This document shows, one piece after another, positions 54,683-57,961 of a stretch of DNA of 64,000 nucleotides; position 1 is the stretch's first letter; each line of letters begins with the position of its first letter. The position numbers and the translations under genes are program-made. The DNA comes from Anaerolineaceae bacterium (lineage in GTDB: Bacteria > Chloroflexota > Anaerolineae > Anaerolineales > Anaerolineaceae), in contig WOYY01000039.1 of the NCBI GenBank assembly GCA_011620555.1, positions 1 through 64,000 of the forward strand, given 5' to 3'. Below the pieces are notes generated by a model. The model was not told the origin of the DNA and did not search any database. It saw nothing but the letters and a program-made list of their open reading frames with translations.

Positions 54683-55201
54683 TCAGAGTTTCAGCTGCTG
54701 GTCGCAGACCGCCCGGTAGCCGCAGCCGGAACAACGGCGGGGGTTGGCGTGCGATCGCTCGGGCGGCGTCCTGCGGCGGGTTTCGGCGCGGATCGCTTCA
54801 ACCAGGGTGAACAGTTCCTCCCGCAGTTCAGGCGTGTAATCGACCTCGAAGGTTTCCCTGGGATAGCTCAGCAGACCGTGGGGCGGCGTCTGGCCGGTGG
54901 TGGCCTCCACCAGATAGCAATAGGCGGCCAACTGCAGGATGTGCGAGTCATAAGGGGCGTCCGGCGTCCGGCCGGATTTGATCTCGACCGGCACAGGCGT
55001 GCCGTTCACGTAAACGAGGTAATCCGGCTTGCCGGCCAGACCCAGTTTGGGGTCATAGAGCGCCTGTTGGTTGGGCTGCCACTGGCCCACGTCGCTGTAG
55101 CTGATCCGCCCCGCGGGCAGACCCGCCTGGCTGCGCTGACGGTTCGACAGCCAAAGGAAAAGCAACGCCGCAGCGATCAGGGCAAGCGCAAGCCAGATCA
55201 T
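54683..55201 (-). CDS. Cas4-like PD-(D/E)XK nuclease, catalytic half, membrane-anchored
   Basis: The ATG at 55201 overlaps the stop of the preceding gene by 4 bp (ATGA). The 172-residue protein starts with a transmembrane helix (2-18), then carries the RecB/Cas4 core: aspartate 60 in GLAGKPDYLV, ExK at 73-75 in VEIKSGR, QLAAYCYL (Q90, Y94), and a C-terminal cysteine group C157, C160, C166 (CSGCGYRAVC). A normal Cas4 needs a fourth cysteine and a histidine from its N-terminus; both are found in the 80-residue protein encoded just upstream. The two should assemble into one Fe-S nuclease at the membrane. There is no CRISPR array or cas gene in the window. Confidence 0.75.
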   Translation of the reverse strand: MIWLALALIAAALLFLWLSNRQRSQAGLPAGRISYSDVGQWQPNQQALYDPKLGLAGKPDYLVYVNGTPVPVEIKSGRTPDAPYDSHILQLAAYCYLVEATTGQTPPHGLLSYPRETFEVDYTPELREELFTLVEAIRAETRRRTPPERSHANPRRCSGCGYRAVCDQQLKL

Positions 55202-55440
55202 GAGCCAAAAATGGAGAGGGTGAGAACAAGGGTCAGGATGACAATGCCCGCCAGCAGCAGCGCCCAGCCCAGAAAGCGAAACCCGCCAGCGATGAACACC
55301 TTGCGGCCGTGCAGGGTGTGGTGGCGGGTTCCGGCGGCCAAGGCTTCCTGGTTGCCGGATTCGACCCCCTCTTTTCGGTACCACCAGGCCCGCCGGCAAT
55401 AGAGATAGGCGCCCAGGTCGGATGCGTTAATCGTCTTCAT
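55198..55440 (-). CDS. Cas4-like nuclease, N-terminal half, membrane-anchored
   Basis: The 80-residue protein begins MKTINASDLGAYLYCRRAWW, the typical Cas4 opening with its first Fe-S cysteine (C15), followed by EALAAGTRHHTLHG, which contains the motif I histidine (40, 41 or 44). It ends in a transmembrane helix (about 51-76). Its stop overlaps the start of the catalytic half by 4 bp, and its start overlaps the end of the translin-like gene by 14 bp. Alone it lacks any catalytic residue. The gene looks too well built, with matched helices on both halves, to be a simple broken nuclease. Confidence 0.7.
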   Translation of the reverse strand: MKTINASDLGAYLYCRRAWWYRKEGVESGNQEALAAGTRHHTLHGRKVFIAGGFRFLGWALLLAGIVILTLVLTLSIFGS

Positions 55441-56083
55441 GGGATTCTTGCATTTCAGAGAGCTGCGCTGAAAGGTCCAGAATCGTTTTTTCAAGTTCCT
55501 GCTGGCGGTAGCTGATGGTGATATCGGCCTGGGTCCGTTCGATGATGCTGCGGGCGATGTCGGTCCGGCGGCGGAGGCCGTAGGTGAGCGCATCGGGGAA
55601 GTCCATGGTGACCAGCTGGGCATAGATATCGTCCATCACATTCATCAGGCGTTCCACTTCAGGCGAGTGTCCGTCCCGGATGATGTCCATGATCCGGCGG
55701 CGCAGTTCTCCGACCACCTCGGAGAGGCCGTTTAGGTAAGTCGCATATTCCACCTGGAGGTCTTGCGGGCTGGGCCATTCCTGGTTCAGGATGGCCGCCA
55801 CGGTCACATGCGCCTCACAATATTCCTTGAGCGCGTCCTGGGCATAGCCGGAGAAGTACAGGTCTGGGTCGCCGGCGAGGCTTTCCCGGATGGAGGTGGC
55901 GAGTTTGTCGGCTTCGGCCAGATGTTCCCGGGCCGTCTTGGCGTCTTCCCGGTGGATGGCGCGGATGGCATGGGCGGCATGGCGGGTCAGCACCCGGCTT
56001 TGCGCCAGGGCCTGATCCCGGATGGTGTTCTTCCGTTCAAAGGAATCTCGGATCTGGTCGGCAAGTTTTTCGATATCAACCAT
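55427..56083 (-). CDS. Translin-like protein
   Basis: The start is the ATG at 56083, seven bases after GGAG. The 218-residue protein is almost all helical and carries the translin signature: DPDLYFSGYAQDALKEYCEAHVTVAAILN in the middle, and YGLRRRTDIARSIIERTQADITISYRQQELEKTI at the C-terminal end. Translin-family proteins form ring-like oligomers that bind single-stranded RNA or DNA; bacterial and archaeal members are little studied. It is the third gene of the ssb operon and directly precedes the Cas4-like pair. Confidence 0.75.
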   Translation of the reverse strand: MVDIEKLADQIRDSFERKNTIRDQALAQSRVLTRHAAHAIRAIHREDAKTAREHLAEADKLATSIRESLAGDPDLYFSGYAQDALKEYCEAHVTVAAILNQEWPSPQDLQVEYATYLNGLSEVVGELRRRIMDIIRDGHSPEVERLMNVMDDIYAQLVTMDFPDALTYGLRRRTDIARSIIERTQADITISYRQQELEKTILDLSAQLSEMQESHEDD

Positions 56084-56387
56084 TGGGTTTCTCCGGGTCA
56101 TCGGGTTTAAAGAGTTCATCTGCCAGCGTGTGACTGCCGGGCAGGTTGATTGATCCGAATTTGTTTTCGTAGCGTTTGACGTTCTCGTTCATGGCACCCA
56201 GGAACAGCTTGGCGGCGGTGGGGGACATCACGATGCGGGAGTTGACGGTGGGTTCCTTGATGCCGGGCAGCAGCAGGGAGAAATCCATCACAAATTCAGC
56301 CGCGGTATGAGAGATCCGGACGAAATTGACATATTGCGCTTCCAGGTCGTCCGGAAGGATAAAATTGGGGATGGGACTGGGCATCAT
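56076..56387 (-). CDS. DUF3467 family protein
   Basis: The 103-residue protein matches DUF3467: AQYVNFVRISHTAAEFVMDF and VNSRIVMSPTAAKLFLGAMNENVKRYENKFG are the typical core. The function is unknown. It starts 9 bp after ssb and overlaps the translin-like start by 8 bp, so expression is tightly linked. Confidence 0.8.
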   Translation of the reverse strand: MMPSPIPNFILPDDLEAQYVNFVRISHTAAEFVMDFSLLLPGIKEPTVNSRIVMSPTAAKLFLGAMNENVKRYENKFGSINLPGSHTLADELFKPDDPEKPNG

Positions 56388-56396
56388 GGCTCCATT

Positions 56397-56819
56397 CTAG
56401 AAGGGGATGTCGTCTTCTTCAACGCCCCCCGCGGCATCACCCAGGTCCTGCTCGTAATTGCTGCCTTCGCCCCGCCCGGTTGGCAGGAAGCGGACATTGA
56501 TGGCGTTCACTTCAAAGGAGGCCCCGCTGGTGCCGTCGTTGCGGGTGTAGACCCGCGGTCCGCCGGTTTGGGGGTCGGGCCGCAGGCGGCCGATCACCAG
56601 CACGGGGCGGCCTTTGCTGAGATATTGGTTGCAGGCTTCAGCCTGTGCGCCCCAAACGGACACCCGGAACCAGGTGGTCTCATCAACCTTTTGGCCGGCG
56701 TTGGTGGTGTAGGAGCGTGAAGCGGCAACGGGAAAACTGGTGACAGCCTGGCCGCTGGGGGTGAACCGCATGACCGGGTCGTTGCCGAGGTATCCGACGA
56801 TGGTTAGTTGTTGAAACAT
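56397..56819 (-). CDS. ssb: Single-stranded DNA-binding protein
   Basis: The 140-residue protein has the SSB OB-fold (QLTIVGYLGNDPVMRFTPSG, FPVAASRSYTT, TTWFRVSVWGAQAEACNQYL, KGRPVLVIGRL) and an acidic C-terminal tail ending EEDDIPF, the tip that docks partner proteins. It heads a five-gene operon (ssb, DUF3467, translin-like, two Cas4-like halves). Whether this is the housekeeping or a second SSB cannot be told, since rpsF and rpsR are not adjacent. Confidence 0.9.
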   Translation of the reverse strand: MFQQLTIVGYLGNDPVMRFTPSGQAVTSFPVAASRSYTTNAGQKVDETTWFRVSVWGAQAEACNQYLSKGRPVLVIGRLRPDPQTGGPRVYTRNDGTSGASFEVNAINVRFLPTGRGEGSNYEQDLGDAAGGVEEDDIPF

Positions 56820-56855: not shown

Positions 56856-57782
56856 TTATTTTACTTCATTTCCGCTGGCGTCCCACCAGTTTGCTGAGTA
56901 CCAGCGCAGGTATTCCCCCAGGTGGGAGGACCAGTAGGCTTCTGTGTGGCCGCCATTGAGCAGGTACCATTCGTGCGGGATGCCGTTCTCATCCAACAGG
57001 TTCGCAAAATCTTCAGCCGTTTGCCATTCCTGGTCGTTCCGGCCAATGTCAATGAAGAACAGTGGCAGGTCTTCATCGGCGAGGCCCATCCAGCTATGGA
57101 GTCGGCCCCCATCCGCTTCAAAGAGCGGCAGGCTGTGTGCGCCGACTCGTGTGAAAAGCTCGTAATGCTCAAAACCGAGGTGCAGTGCCCAGGCCGCCCC
57201 GCGGGAGACGCCCGCGATGGCCCGGTAGGCCTTCTCAGGCAGGGTTTGGTACTGTAAGTCCACCCCCGGGATCAATTCATTGACCAGAGCGTTTCCGAAT
57301 TGGGAGACCTGCGGCGGGGTGAAGGGCGATTCCAGCGGCATCACGGCAATGAAGGGTGGGATTTCACCCGCGGCGATCAGCTCGTTCAGCGTCGGAACCA
57401 GCCCCAGCCGCTGCCATTGGTCCTGCCGGTAGGAAAGGCCATGCAACAGATAAACCACGGGGTAGCGGCTTTCAGAGTCGGTGTCATAGCAAGGCGGCAG
57501 GTAGACGTCATAGAACAGGTCCCCTTCCAGCGCTGCACTGTACATGGATTCATTTGAGAGGGTCCCGCCCATTGCGAGGCAATCCGGGGTGGGGGTAGGC
57601 TGAGCCAATTCGTTGGCCTCCGGGGTGGGCGTATTCAGGGCAGCCTCCGCCCGGTCGGAGGTCTCCGTTGGGGCGGCTGATGACGGCGCGGCCTGGGGCT
57701 GACAGGCCCCCAGCAGGAGCGCCAGCAGCGCCAATAGGCTGGCGAGCGGAGGGGAGGGGTGCGCTGCTTGACGTCTGGTCAT
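56856..57782 (-). CDS. Lipoprotein esterase, PF00756 type
   Basis: I start it at the ATG at 57782; the open frame further left runs into the tRNA gene. The 308-residue protein has a lipobox LLLGAC (cysteine 27), a Pro/Thr/Glu linker, and an alpha/beta-hydrolase of the putative-esterase family: DVYLPPCYDTDSESRYPVVY, YLLHGLSYRQDQW, GVSRGAAWAL with the nucleophile serine, and LLNGGHTEAYW with the catalytic histidine. Family members include feruloyl esterases and S-formylglutathione hydrolase. The substrate is open. Confidence 0.8.
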   Translation of the reverse strand: MTRRQAAHPSPPLASLLALLALLLGACQPQAAPSSAAPTETSDRAEAALNTPTPEANELAQPTPTPDCLAMGGTLSNESMYSAALEGDLFYDVYLPPCYDTDSESRYPVVYLLHGLSYRQDQWQRLGLVPTLNELIAAGEIPPFIAVMPLESPFTPPQVSQFGNALVNELIPGVDLQYQTLPEKAYRAIAGVSRGAAWALHLGFEHYELFTRVGAHSLPLFEADGGRLHSWMGLADEDLPLFFIDIGRNDQEWQTAEDFANLLDENGIPHEWYLLNGGHTEAYWSSHLGEYLRWYSANWWDASGNEVK

Positions 57783-57806
57783 GGTTCGGATTATACTCTT
57801 ATCTGC

Positions 57807-57880
57807 CGGGGTGTAGCGCAGTCGGCCAGCGCGCCGCGTTTGGGACGCGGAGGTCGGCGGTTCAAGTCCGCCCACCCCGA
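57807..57880 (+). tRNA. tRNA-Pro (anticodon TGG)
   Basis: The 74-nt gene folds as a full cloverleaf. Acceptor CGGGGTG pairs with CACCCCG, the anticodon stem is CCGCG/CGCGG with loop TTTGGGA, and the T arm is GGCGG-TTCAAGT-CCGCC. The discriminator is A and CCA is not encoded. Confidence 0.95.
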
Positions 57881-57961
57881 CTCGATTGAAGAATGGGAAG
57901 GTGAGCGAGAATTTTGGTGCGTTCTCCTTGCCATTTTTTGTACCATTGATGGTTCAAAATC

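Follow-up and report, generated by a model that had tools for sequence, protein, structure and literature searches.

Do five closely packed genes of an Anaerolineaceae bacterium, ssb, a DUF3467 gene, tsn, cas4N and cas4C, encode one system, and what is the nuclease at their end? The genes lie in a stretch of 64,000 nucleotides (nt) from contig WOYY01000039.1 (assembly GCA_011620555.1, Chloroflexota), hereafter called the window, and had been predicted to be one operon joining a single-stranded DNA-binding protein (SSB), a translin-like protein and a split Cas4-like nuclease. Our analysis indicated that the last two genes encode the two parts of a Cas4-family protein as separate chains. At the level of sequence, the split itself is established and is conserved, as are the complementary motif sets of the two halves and their predicted topology. 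The reading we favor, with a probability of about 0.5, is that of a membrane-anchored two-chain Cas4 which faces the cytoplasm, acts independently of clustered regularly interspaced short palindromic repeats (CRISPR) and is sometimes co-translated with proteins handling single strands. The open reading frames and family scans confirmed the position of the five genes and that they overlap or nearly touch:

56397..56819, minus strand: ssb, single-stranded DNA-binding protein with an acidic tail ending in DDIPF (PF00436, E-value 1.4e-23)
56076..56387, minus strand: DUF3467 gene, 103 amino acids, 9-nt gap to ssb (PF11950, 2.1e-17)
55427..56083, minus strand: tsn, TRAX/translin-family protein, 218 amino acids, start codon ATG at 56083, 8-nt overlap with the DUF3467 gene (PF01997, 7.5e-7)
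55198..55440, minus strand: cas4N, N-terminal Cas4 half, 80 amino acids, 14-nt overlap with tsn
54683..55201, minus strand: cas4C, C-terminal Cas4 half, 172 amino acids, 4-nt overlap with cas4N (Pfam Cas_Cas4, 3.5e-11)

The start of tsn was placed at 56083 and not at 56119, because the former fits the aligned relatives. The window genome (2,321,920 bases, 99 contigs) contained one match to tsn and one to the Cas4 model TIGR00372.

The two halves of Cas4

The products of cas4N and cas4C tile Cas4 profiles nearly without overlap (profile positions 3-42 and 40-160 in one case, 5-47 and 47-174 in another). The N half matched seven Cas4 profiles only up to positions 37-47, with E-values of 7e-5 to 0.014, and TIGR00372 with 0.0013 over positions 1-40; the C half matched TIGR00372 with 5e-21. 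Cys15, His41, His44 and a C-terminal predicted membrane helix are located in the N half, and the C half has an N-terminal predicted membrane helix, followed by a PD-(D/E)XK core and three cysteines. We take the PD-(D/E)XK motif residues (His, Asp, Glu-x-Lys, Gln) to be the Cas4 motifs; in the window pair the His, that of motif I, is on cas4N and the others are on cas4C. The four cysteines presumably bind an iron-sulphur cluster, as in Cas4 work. When fragments of 150 amino acids or less were left out, 58 of 69 distinct C rows had the full set of Gly-Pro-Asp, Glu, Lys, Gln, Tyr and three Cys, with Cys157, Cys160 and Cys166 present in 68, 69 and 68 rows, respectively. Cys15 was found in 61 and His41 in 57 of 64 N rows. 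A structural model of cas4C with a mean predicted local distance difference test (pLDDT) score of 81 had Cas4 structures as best matches (7mi4_A, Z 13.2 and root-mean-square deviation 3.6 over 109 residues; 8d3l_J, Foldseek E-value 6.6e-6). Both nuclease activity and complex formation of the two chains are predicted from these features.

A helix of membrane grade, defined as a Kyte-Doolittle value of at least 1.96 over 19 residues, was present in all 62 distinct N chains and all 67 distinct C chains when the fusions were set aside; in the N chains a median of three residues follows the helix. Within the locus only the Cas4 halves reached this grade, the maxima for ssb, DUF3467 and tsn being 0.53, 1.12 and 0.47. 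Over the 15 residues flanking the helix on its soluble side, Lys/Arg averaged 3.11 in N chains and 3.51 in C chains, compared to 0.48 in the 15 residues beyond the N helix and 0.49 in the eight before the C helix. According to the positive-inside rule for membrane topology, this clustering suggests that both soluble parts are cytoplasmic. Two single-chain fusions with two hydrophobic helices between the N and C parts were found in f28 (f1, f2 and so on are family labels assigned by the search tool), namely L160:2318-3310 with 330 amino acids and L149:4595-5614 with 339 amino acids. These natural fusions fix the order N-helix-helix-C and make a broken gene untenable. The original description of the nuclease as split and membrane-bound was borne out, the latter as a prediction.

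Among 301 Chloroflexota genomes, 61 had a strong cas4C match (E-value ≤ 1e-44), and cas4N was present in all 61. The cut-off was chosen after the list had been seen, at a gap between 3e-45 and 1e-39. Of 100 genomes with a cas4C match at 1e-10, 39 fall below it; a hand count gave 17 among these with a cas4N match at ≤ 0.001, local profiles added more, and others contain ordinary Cas4. At ≤ 0.001, cas4N was detected in 82 of the 301 genomes, comprising the 61 strong and 17 weaker cases as well as G062, where cas4N lies just behind tsn near a contig end and no strong cas4C was found there, and G153, G215 and G226, whose weak matches lie in longer frames. Outside the phylum, 26 named tsn-bearing genomes labelled as archaea or other bacterial groups gave no strong cas4C match; four of these genomes had weak matches, which began no earlier than residue 41. 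Two Chloroflexota controls in the same search of 28 named genomes gave strong matches. A draw of 201 genomes around an Armatimonadetes genome yielded no match at ≤ 1e-15, this draw having no positive of its own.

In 43 of the 61 strong pairs the halves are at most 60 nt apart in N-then-C order, and in nine they are separated by 64-833 nt. The halves of the remaining nine lie apart, seven on other contigs and two at distances of about 0.9 and 2.8 Mb by contig coordinates; G295 is a doubtful member of this group, with a partial second cas4N beside its cas4C. In L058, a gene named by eye as L,D-transpeptidase-like separates the halves. In five pairs, the ratio of nonsynonymous to synonymous substitutions (dN/dS) ranged from about 0.05 to 0.25 for the N half and from about 0.05 to 0.09 for the C half, with one pair saturated at synonymous sites.

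With respect to CRISPR, 20 split-Cas4 genomes were searched. No Cas1 was found in four of them (the window genome, G290, G120 and G184), and in the other 16 the pair was more than 33 kb from any cas1 gene, with a minimum distance of about 34 kb in G176. Four genomes (G216, G088, G192, G011) have an ordinary Cas4 gene within 0.8 kb of cas1 and the split pair on another contig. A CRISPR link of the locus, considered as a candidate, was ruled out since no cas1 gene lies near the pair in these 20 genomes. A link to mobile elements was likewise rejected: 45 stretches of viral contigs matched in a pattern scan, and only one of them encodes a relative, a distant one with 32% identity over residues 48-166 and no match at the membrane helix.

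Gene order around tsn

The tsn gene was present in 166 of the 301 Chloroflexota genomes and in 60 of the 61 with strong cas4C, G295 being the one without it. We read the neighbourhoods in 70 tsn-bearing genomes, counting by hand and duplicates once; in 11 of the 70 the flanks extended no more than 1.5 kb. On the same strand as tsn, DUF3467 was located directly upstream in 26 genomes, and 27 had ssb as the first or second gene upstream, so the gene order ssb-DUF3467-tsn is not due to chance. The Cas4 halves follow tsn in seven genomes (G000, G290, G216, G104, G192, G184 and G088), with one gene between the halves in G184 and one before them in G088. Coordinates revealed two further genomes of this kind, G011 and G062, the latter with cas4N only. 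The whole set of five genes was found in G000, G104 and G290.

A scan of named genomes, in which 80 loci were kept of at least 540 relatives, gave 13 loci with at least one partner gene, eight in which cas4N follows tsn and two with the whole set (L176 and L221). Adjacency of tsn and cas4N recurs in f1, f9, f10, f22 and f25, with one gene between the two in f5. In L042, a DUF6909 protein (L042:5708-7465, E-value 1.3e-222) is encoded between tsn and cas4N. Among the 54 of 60 genomes with both tsn and the strong pair in which their places were compared, the pair lies within 2 kb of tsn in eight, and rough arithmetic, for which related genomes are not independent, puts the chance expectation well under one. 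On the cas4C tree, linkage to tsn changes seven times compared to a mean of 13.8 for shuffled labels, and the label was more clustered than in any of 500 shuffles, to which near-copies contribute. This pattern fits either an old linkage that was lost many times or repeated joining. On the tree, f2 and f28 each form a group of rows, 28 of 66 inner branches are open, and rows of f4 and f23 are scattered over weak forks, one f4 row grouping with the f8 row (97/91). Near rows on this tree (L183, Anaerolineaceae) also indicate that the host is a member of the Anaerolineae. The pair was likely inherited vertically in part, and transfer may have contributed.

Several further observations concern the surroundings of these genes. 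Eight f2 loci have a gene for a conserved membrane-type protein of about 205 amino acids behind tsn (at L078:4381-4986 and L086:5698-6318 in two of them); the one scanned had no Pfam match above the cut-off. In four of the eight the next gene belongs to a family of which one member was scanned and identified as a nucleoside 2-deoxyribosyltransferase. In the window, a putative esterase gene (56856-57875, minus strand) ends 36 nt upstream of ssb, and since it lies this close on the same strand, the transcript may be longer than the five genes. A tRNA-Pro gene is located nearby on the plus strand (57807-57881). A promoter and terminator scan of the locus gave signals no more frequent than expected by chance.

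The TRAX-like protein, DUF3467 and the second SSB

The original prediction placed tsn in a family of ring-forming single-strand binders. Its membership is supported by homology: it scored 29.7 bits against PF01997 (cut-off 25.9), and the structure of TRAX of Archaeoglobus fulgidus (3zc1) was matched with an E-value of 1.3e-22, with homology over 180 residues. NCBIfam model PRK14562 was matched with 5.7e-71 and 238 bits, below the model's own cut-off of 291; six PRK14562 submodels were matched, all under their own cut-offs. In alignment A3, Glu76, Glu79 and Glu114 are invariant in 14 rows, together with one Asp/Glu position. At one conserved acidic place the A. fulgidus structures 3zc1 and 3zc0 differ by Asp/Ala, and all 13 bacterial rows have Glu. 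We assume that the conserved acidic positions are the catalytic residues of the TRAX active site. Proteins of the translin/TRAX family assemble into rings or cages and bind single strands. We therefore regard tsn as encoding a TRAX-like protein of this RNase family, for which a cage and RNase activity are predicted. It shares the acidic residues with archaeal TRAX/C3PO (A. fulgidus 3zc1, Nanoarchaeum equitans NEQ131) but is bacterial and has SSB, DUF3467 and Cas4 neighbours; the five archaeal tsn loci kept held no partner gene. Trax of N. equitans is reported to degrade RNA on its own through oligomerisation (PMC9051087), and the largest archaeal SepRS clade is reported to derive probably from an operon with TRAX (PMC5424206). 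In the partial, mostly open literature searched on translin in Chloroflexi and on archaeal C3PO, we recognised no description of the present arrangement, and in the literature searched we found no report on the function of bacterial TRAX homologues.

The DUF3467 protein of the window scored above the Pfam cut-off of PF11950. The family occurs in 53 of the 301 Chloroflexota genomes, in 26 of which it adjoins tsn. An AlphaFold2 model (mean pLDDT 78) predicted three strands and one long helix. Its likeness to single-strand binders of the PC4/PUR/MRP type and to COMM domains was weak (Z 5.1 or less); several PC4/PUR rows were among the best, at Z 5.0 or less and mixed with COMM domains, and Foldseek gave E-values of 0.2 or worse, so that the fold search yielded nothing decisive. 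Among solved structures there was one match (E-value 0.55) and no convincing relative. The name is scarce in the literature searched, where we recognised no account of the gene arrangement described here.

The ssb gene of the operon is the second SSB copy of the window genome, the other being part of an rpsF-ssb-rpsR cluster on contig C67, in which rpsF and rpsR were named by eye from their translations. In 14 genomes searched, the operon ssb was the sole SSB found in G176, which is a single contig, and in the draft genome G290; the other five f1 genomes among them had two to six SSB matches each. In G176 and G290 the gene is therefore not a dedicated competence SSB.

Readings of the locus

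According to the favored reading, the cas4N and cas4C products would be two chains of one Cas4-family nuclease. Each would cross the membrane once, jointly forming the hairpin that single-chain relatives have between their parts. The soluble parts would assemble the active site in the cytoplasm, with the His from N and the Asp, Glu, Lys and Gln from C, and the iron-sulphur site would receive one Cys from N and three from C. Such a nuclease might act on DNA ends on the cytoplasmic side of the membrane, trimming or degrading them in a chromosomal function independent of CRISPR. The TRAX-like, DUF3467 and second SSB products may bind and process single-stranded nucleic acid, joint action with the nuclease being much less strongly indicated. 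A doubtful extension is a membrane module in which the TRAX cage and SSB hand substrates to a Cas4 that is active only when its two chains meet and complete one cluster.

Several results weigh against this reading. In the two genomes of the same genus, G168 and G200, the order ssb-DUF3467-tsn is present and neither half of Cas4 was detected. Family f2, with 17 genomes, has the pair at a distance from tsn, which amounts to 8-9.5 kb in three of them. At eight loci of f23, f33 and f59 (L127, L130-L135, L157) the split pair lies behind an M50 site-2 protease gene instead of tsn, identified by a Pfam run on one of the eight; at these loci the pair is often followed by one or two genes for small unknown proteins. 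The assemblies with tsn-cas4N adjacency in f22 and f25 have contaminations of 8% and 6%, so their family may be wrong. The linkage to tsn changed seven times on the tree, and the motif-II Asp is lost in six of 69 C rows including both f28 fusions. As a consequence of this loss some members may be inactive, and part of f28 may hold such a form.

Since G168 and G200 keep three genes without Cas4, the locus is best described as a three-gene core with an optional two-gene neighbour. Gene order is indeed conserved outside the strain, as originally expected, but as two units; together with f2, these two genomes speak against one fixed five-gene system. Of the original interpretation, the conserved order, the split membrane Cas4 and the translin family were supported, and the fixed system and the defence role were not. 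The same genomes favor an explanation that we consider possible but less likely, namely that an ssb-DUF3467-tsn operon and a separate two-chain Cas4 are unrelated neighbours merely sharing a transcript here. In f2, and in most genomes that do not belong to f1, the pair has another location, and other genes stand behind tsn, such as that of the f2 membrane protein. This explanation must account for the recurrence of tsn-cas4N adjacency in five families and in named loci, for a number of linkage changes about half the shuffled mean even if near-copies help, and for the presence of tsn in 60 of 61 strong-pair genomes versus 166 of 301 overall, a comparison in which kinship is not corrected for.

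Neither defence nor DNA uptake has specific support. A membrane-associated anti-phage system attacking incoming DNA appears improbable. It could draw on the Cas4 and DruK profiles that match cas4C and on a proposed role of solo-Cas4 in unknown defence or repair (Hudaiberdiev et al., PMC5704561). However, PADLOC profiles (Cas4-type, DruK and Cas1-fusion) matched the Cas4 halves only and none matched ssb, DUF3467 or tsn, both halves are under purifying selection, the viral-contig scan gave the single distant relative, and the tree groups the f2 and f28 rows, though not those of f4 and f23. We give slightly less credence still to a DNA-uptake unit in which the second SSB protects incoming strands and the membrane nuclease trims them. 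The SSB paralogue of the window genome and the predicted cytoplasmic site of the nuclease would suit it, but in G176 and G290 no SSB besides that of the operon was found, and ComEC-type proteins occur in 270 of the 301 genomes, so that co-occurrence is uninformative on uptake. The 4-nt overlap of the halves in the window might also suggest a frameshifted or decaying single Cas4 gene. This was ruled out for practical purposes by the presence of both halves in 61 of 61 genomes, their separation by another gene or over long distances, and the purifying selection on both.

The two-chain, membrane-anchored Cas4 that we favor shares with Cas4 and solo-Cas4 (COG1468, pfam01930, TIGR00372) the PD-(D/E)XK core, motif residues, cysteines, profile and fold, and differs from them by its two separately encoded chains with one predicted membrane helix each and by not lying beside cas1. 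ACE1, a Cas4 family, takes its name from an Argonaute and not from CRISPR and was a structural match of cas4C (Z 6.6), but in the PDB rows it aligns as a single chain. The main text of Hudaiberdiev et al. (PMC5704561) does not contain "split", "transmembrane" or "translin" and has "membrane" once, in the name of another gene; the genes of that study may be the same as the split pair. In the limited part of the literature searched on a membrane or split Cas4, with few subscription papers, we recognised no description of this arrangement. This known enzyme family thus appears to have a two-piece membrane form, present in many members of one phylum, of which we found no description in that literature.

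For bacterial TRAX homologues, the split Cas4, ssb and DUF3467 offer a testable set of partners. If the membrane module were true, nuclease activity would be gated by the assembly of subunits in the membrane. In nucleases of the Cas4, Dna2 and AddB type, the iron-sulphur site acts as a staple between the ends of a single chain. Two ends made as separate membrane proteins, even from distant loci, would, if true, show that two chains can be stapled in this way, and the split form suggests that solo-Cas4, an enzyme of open function, has a role at the membrane.

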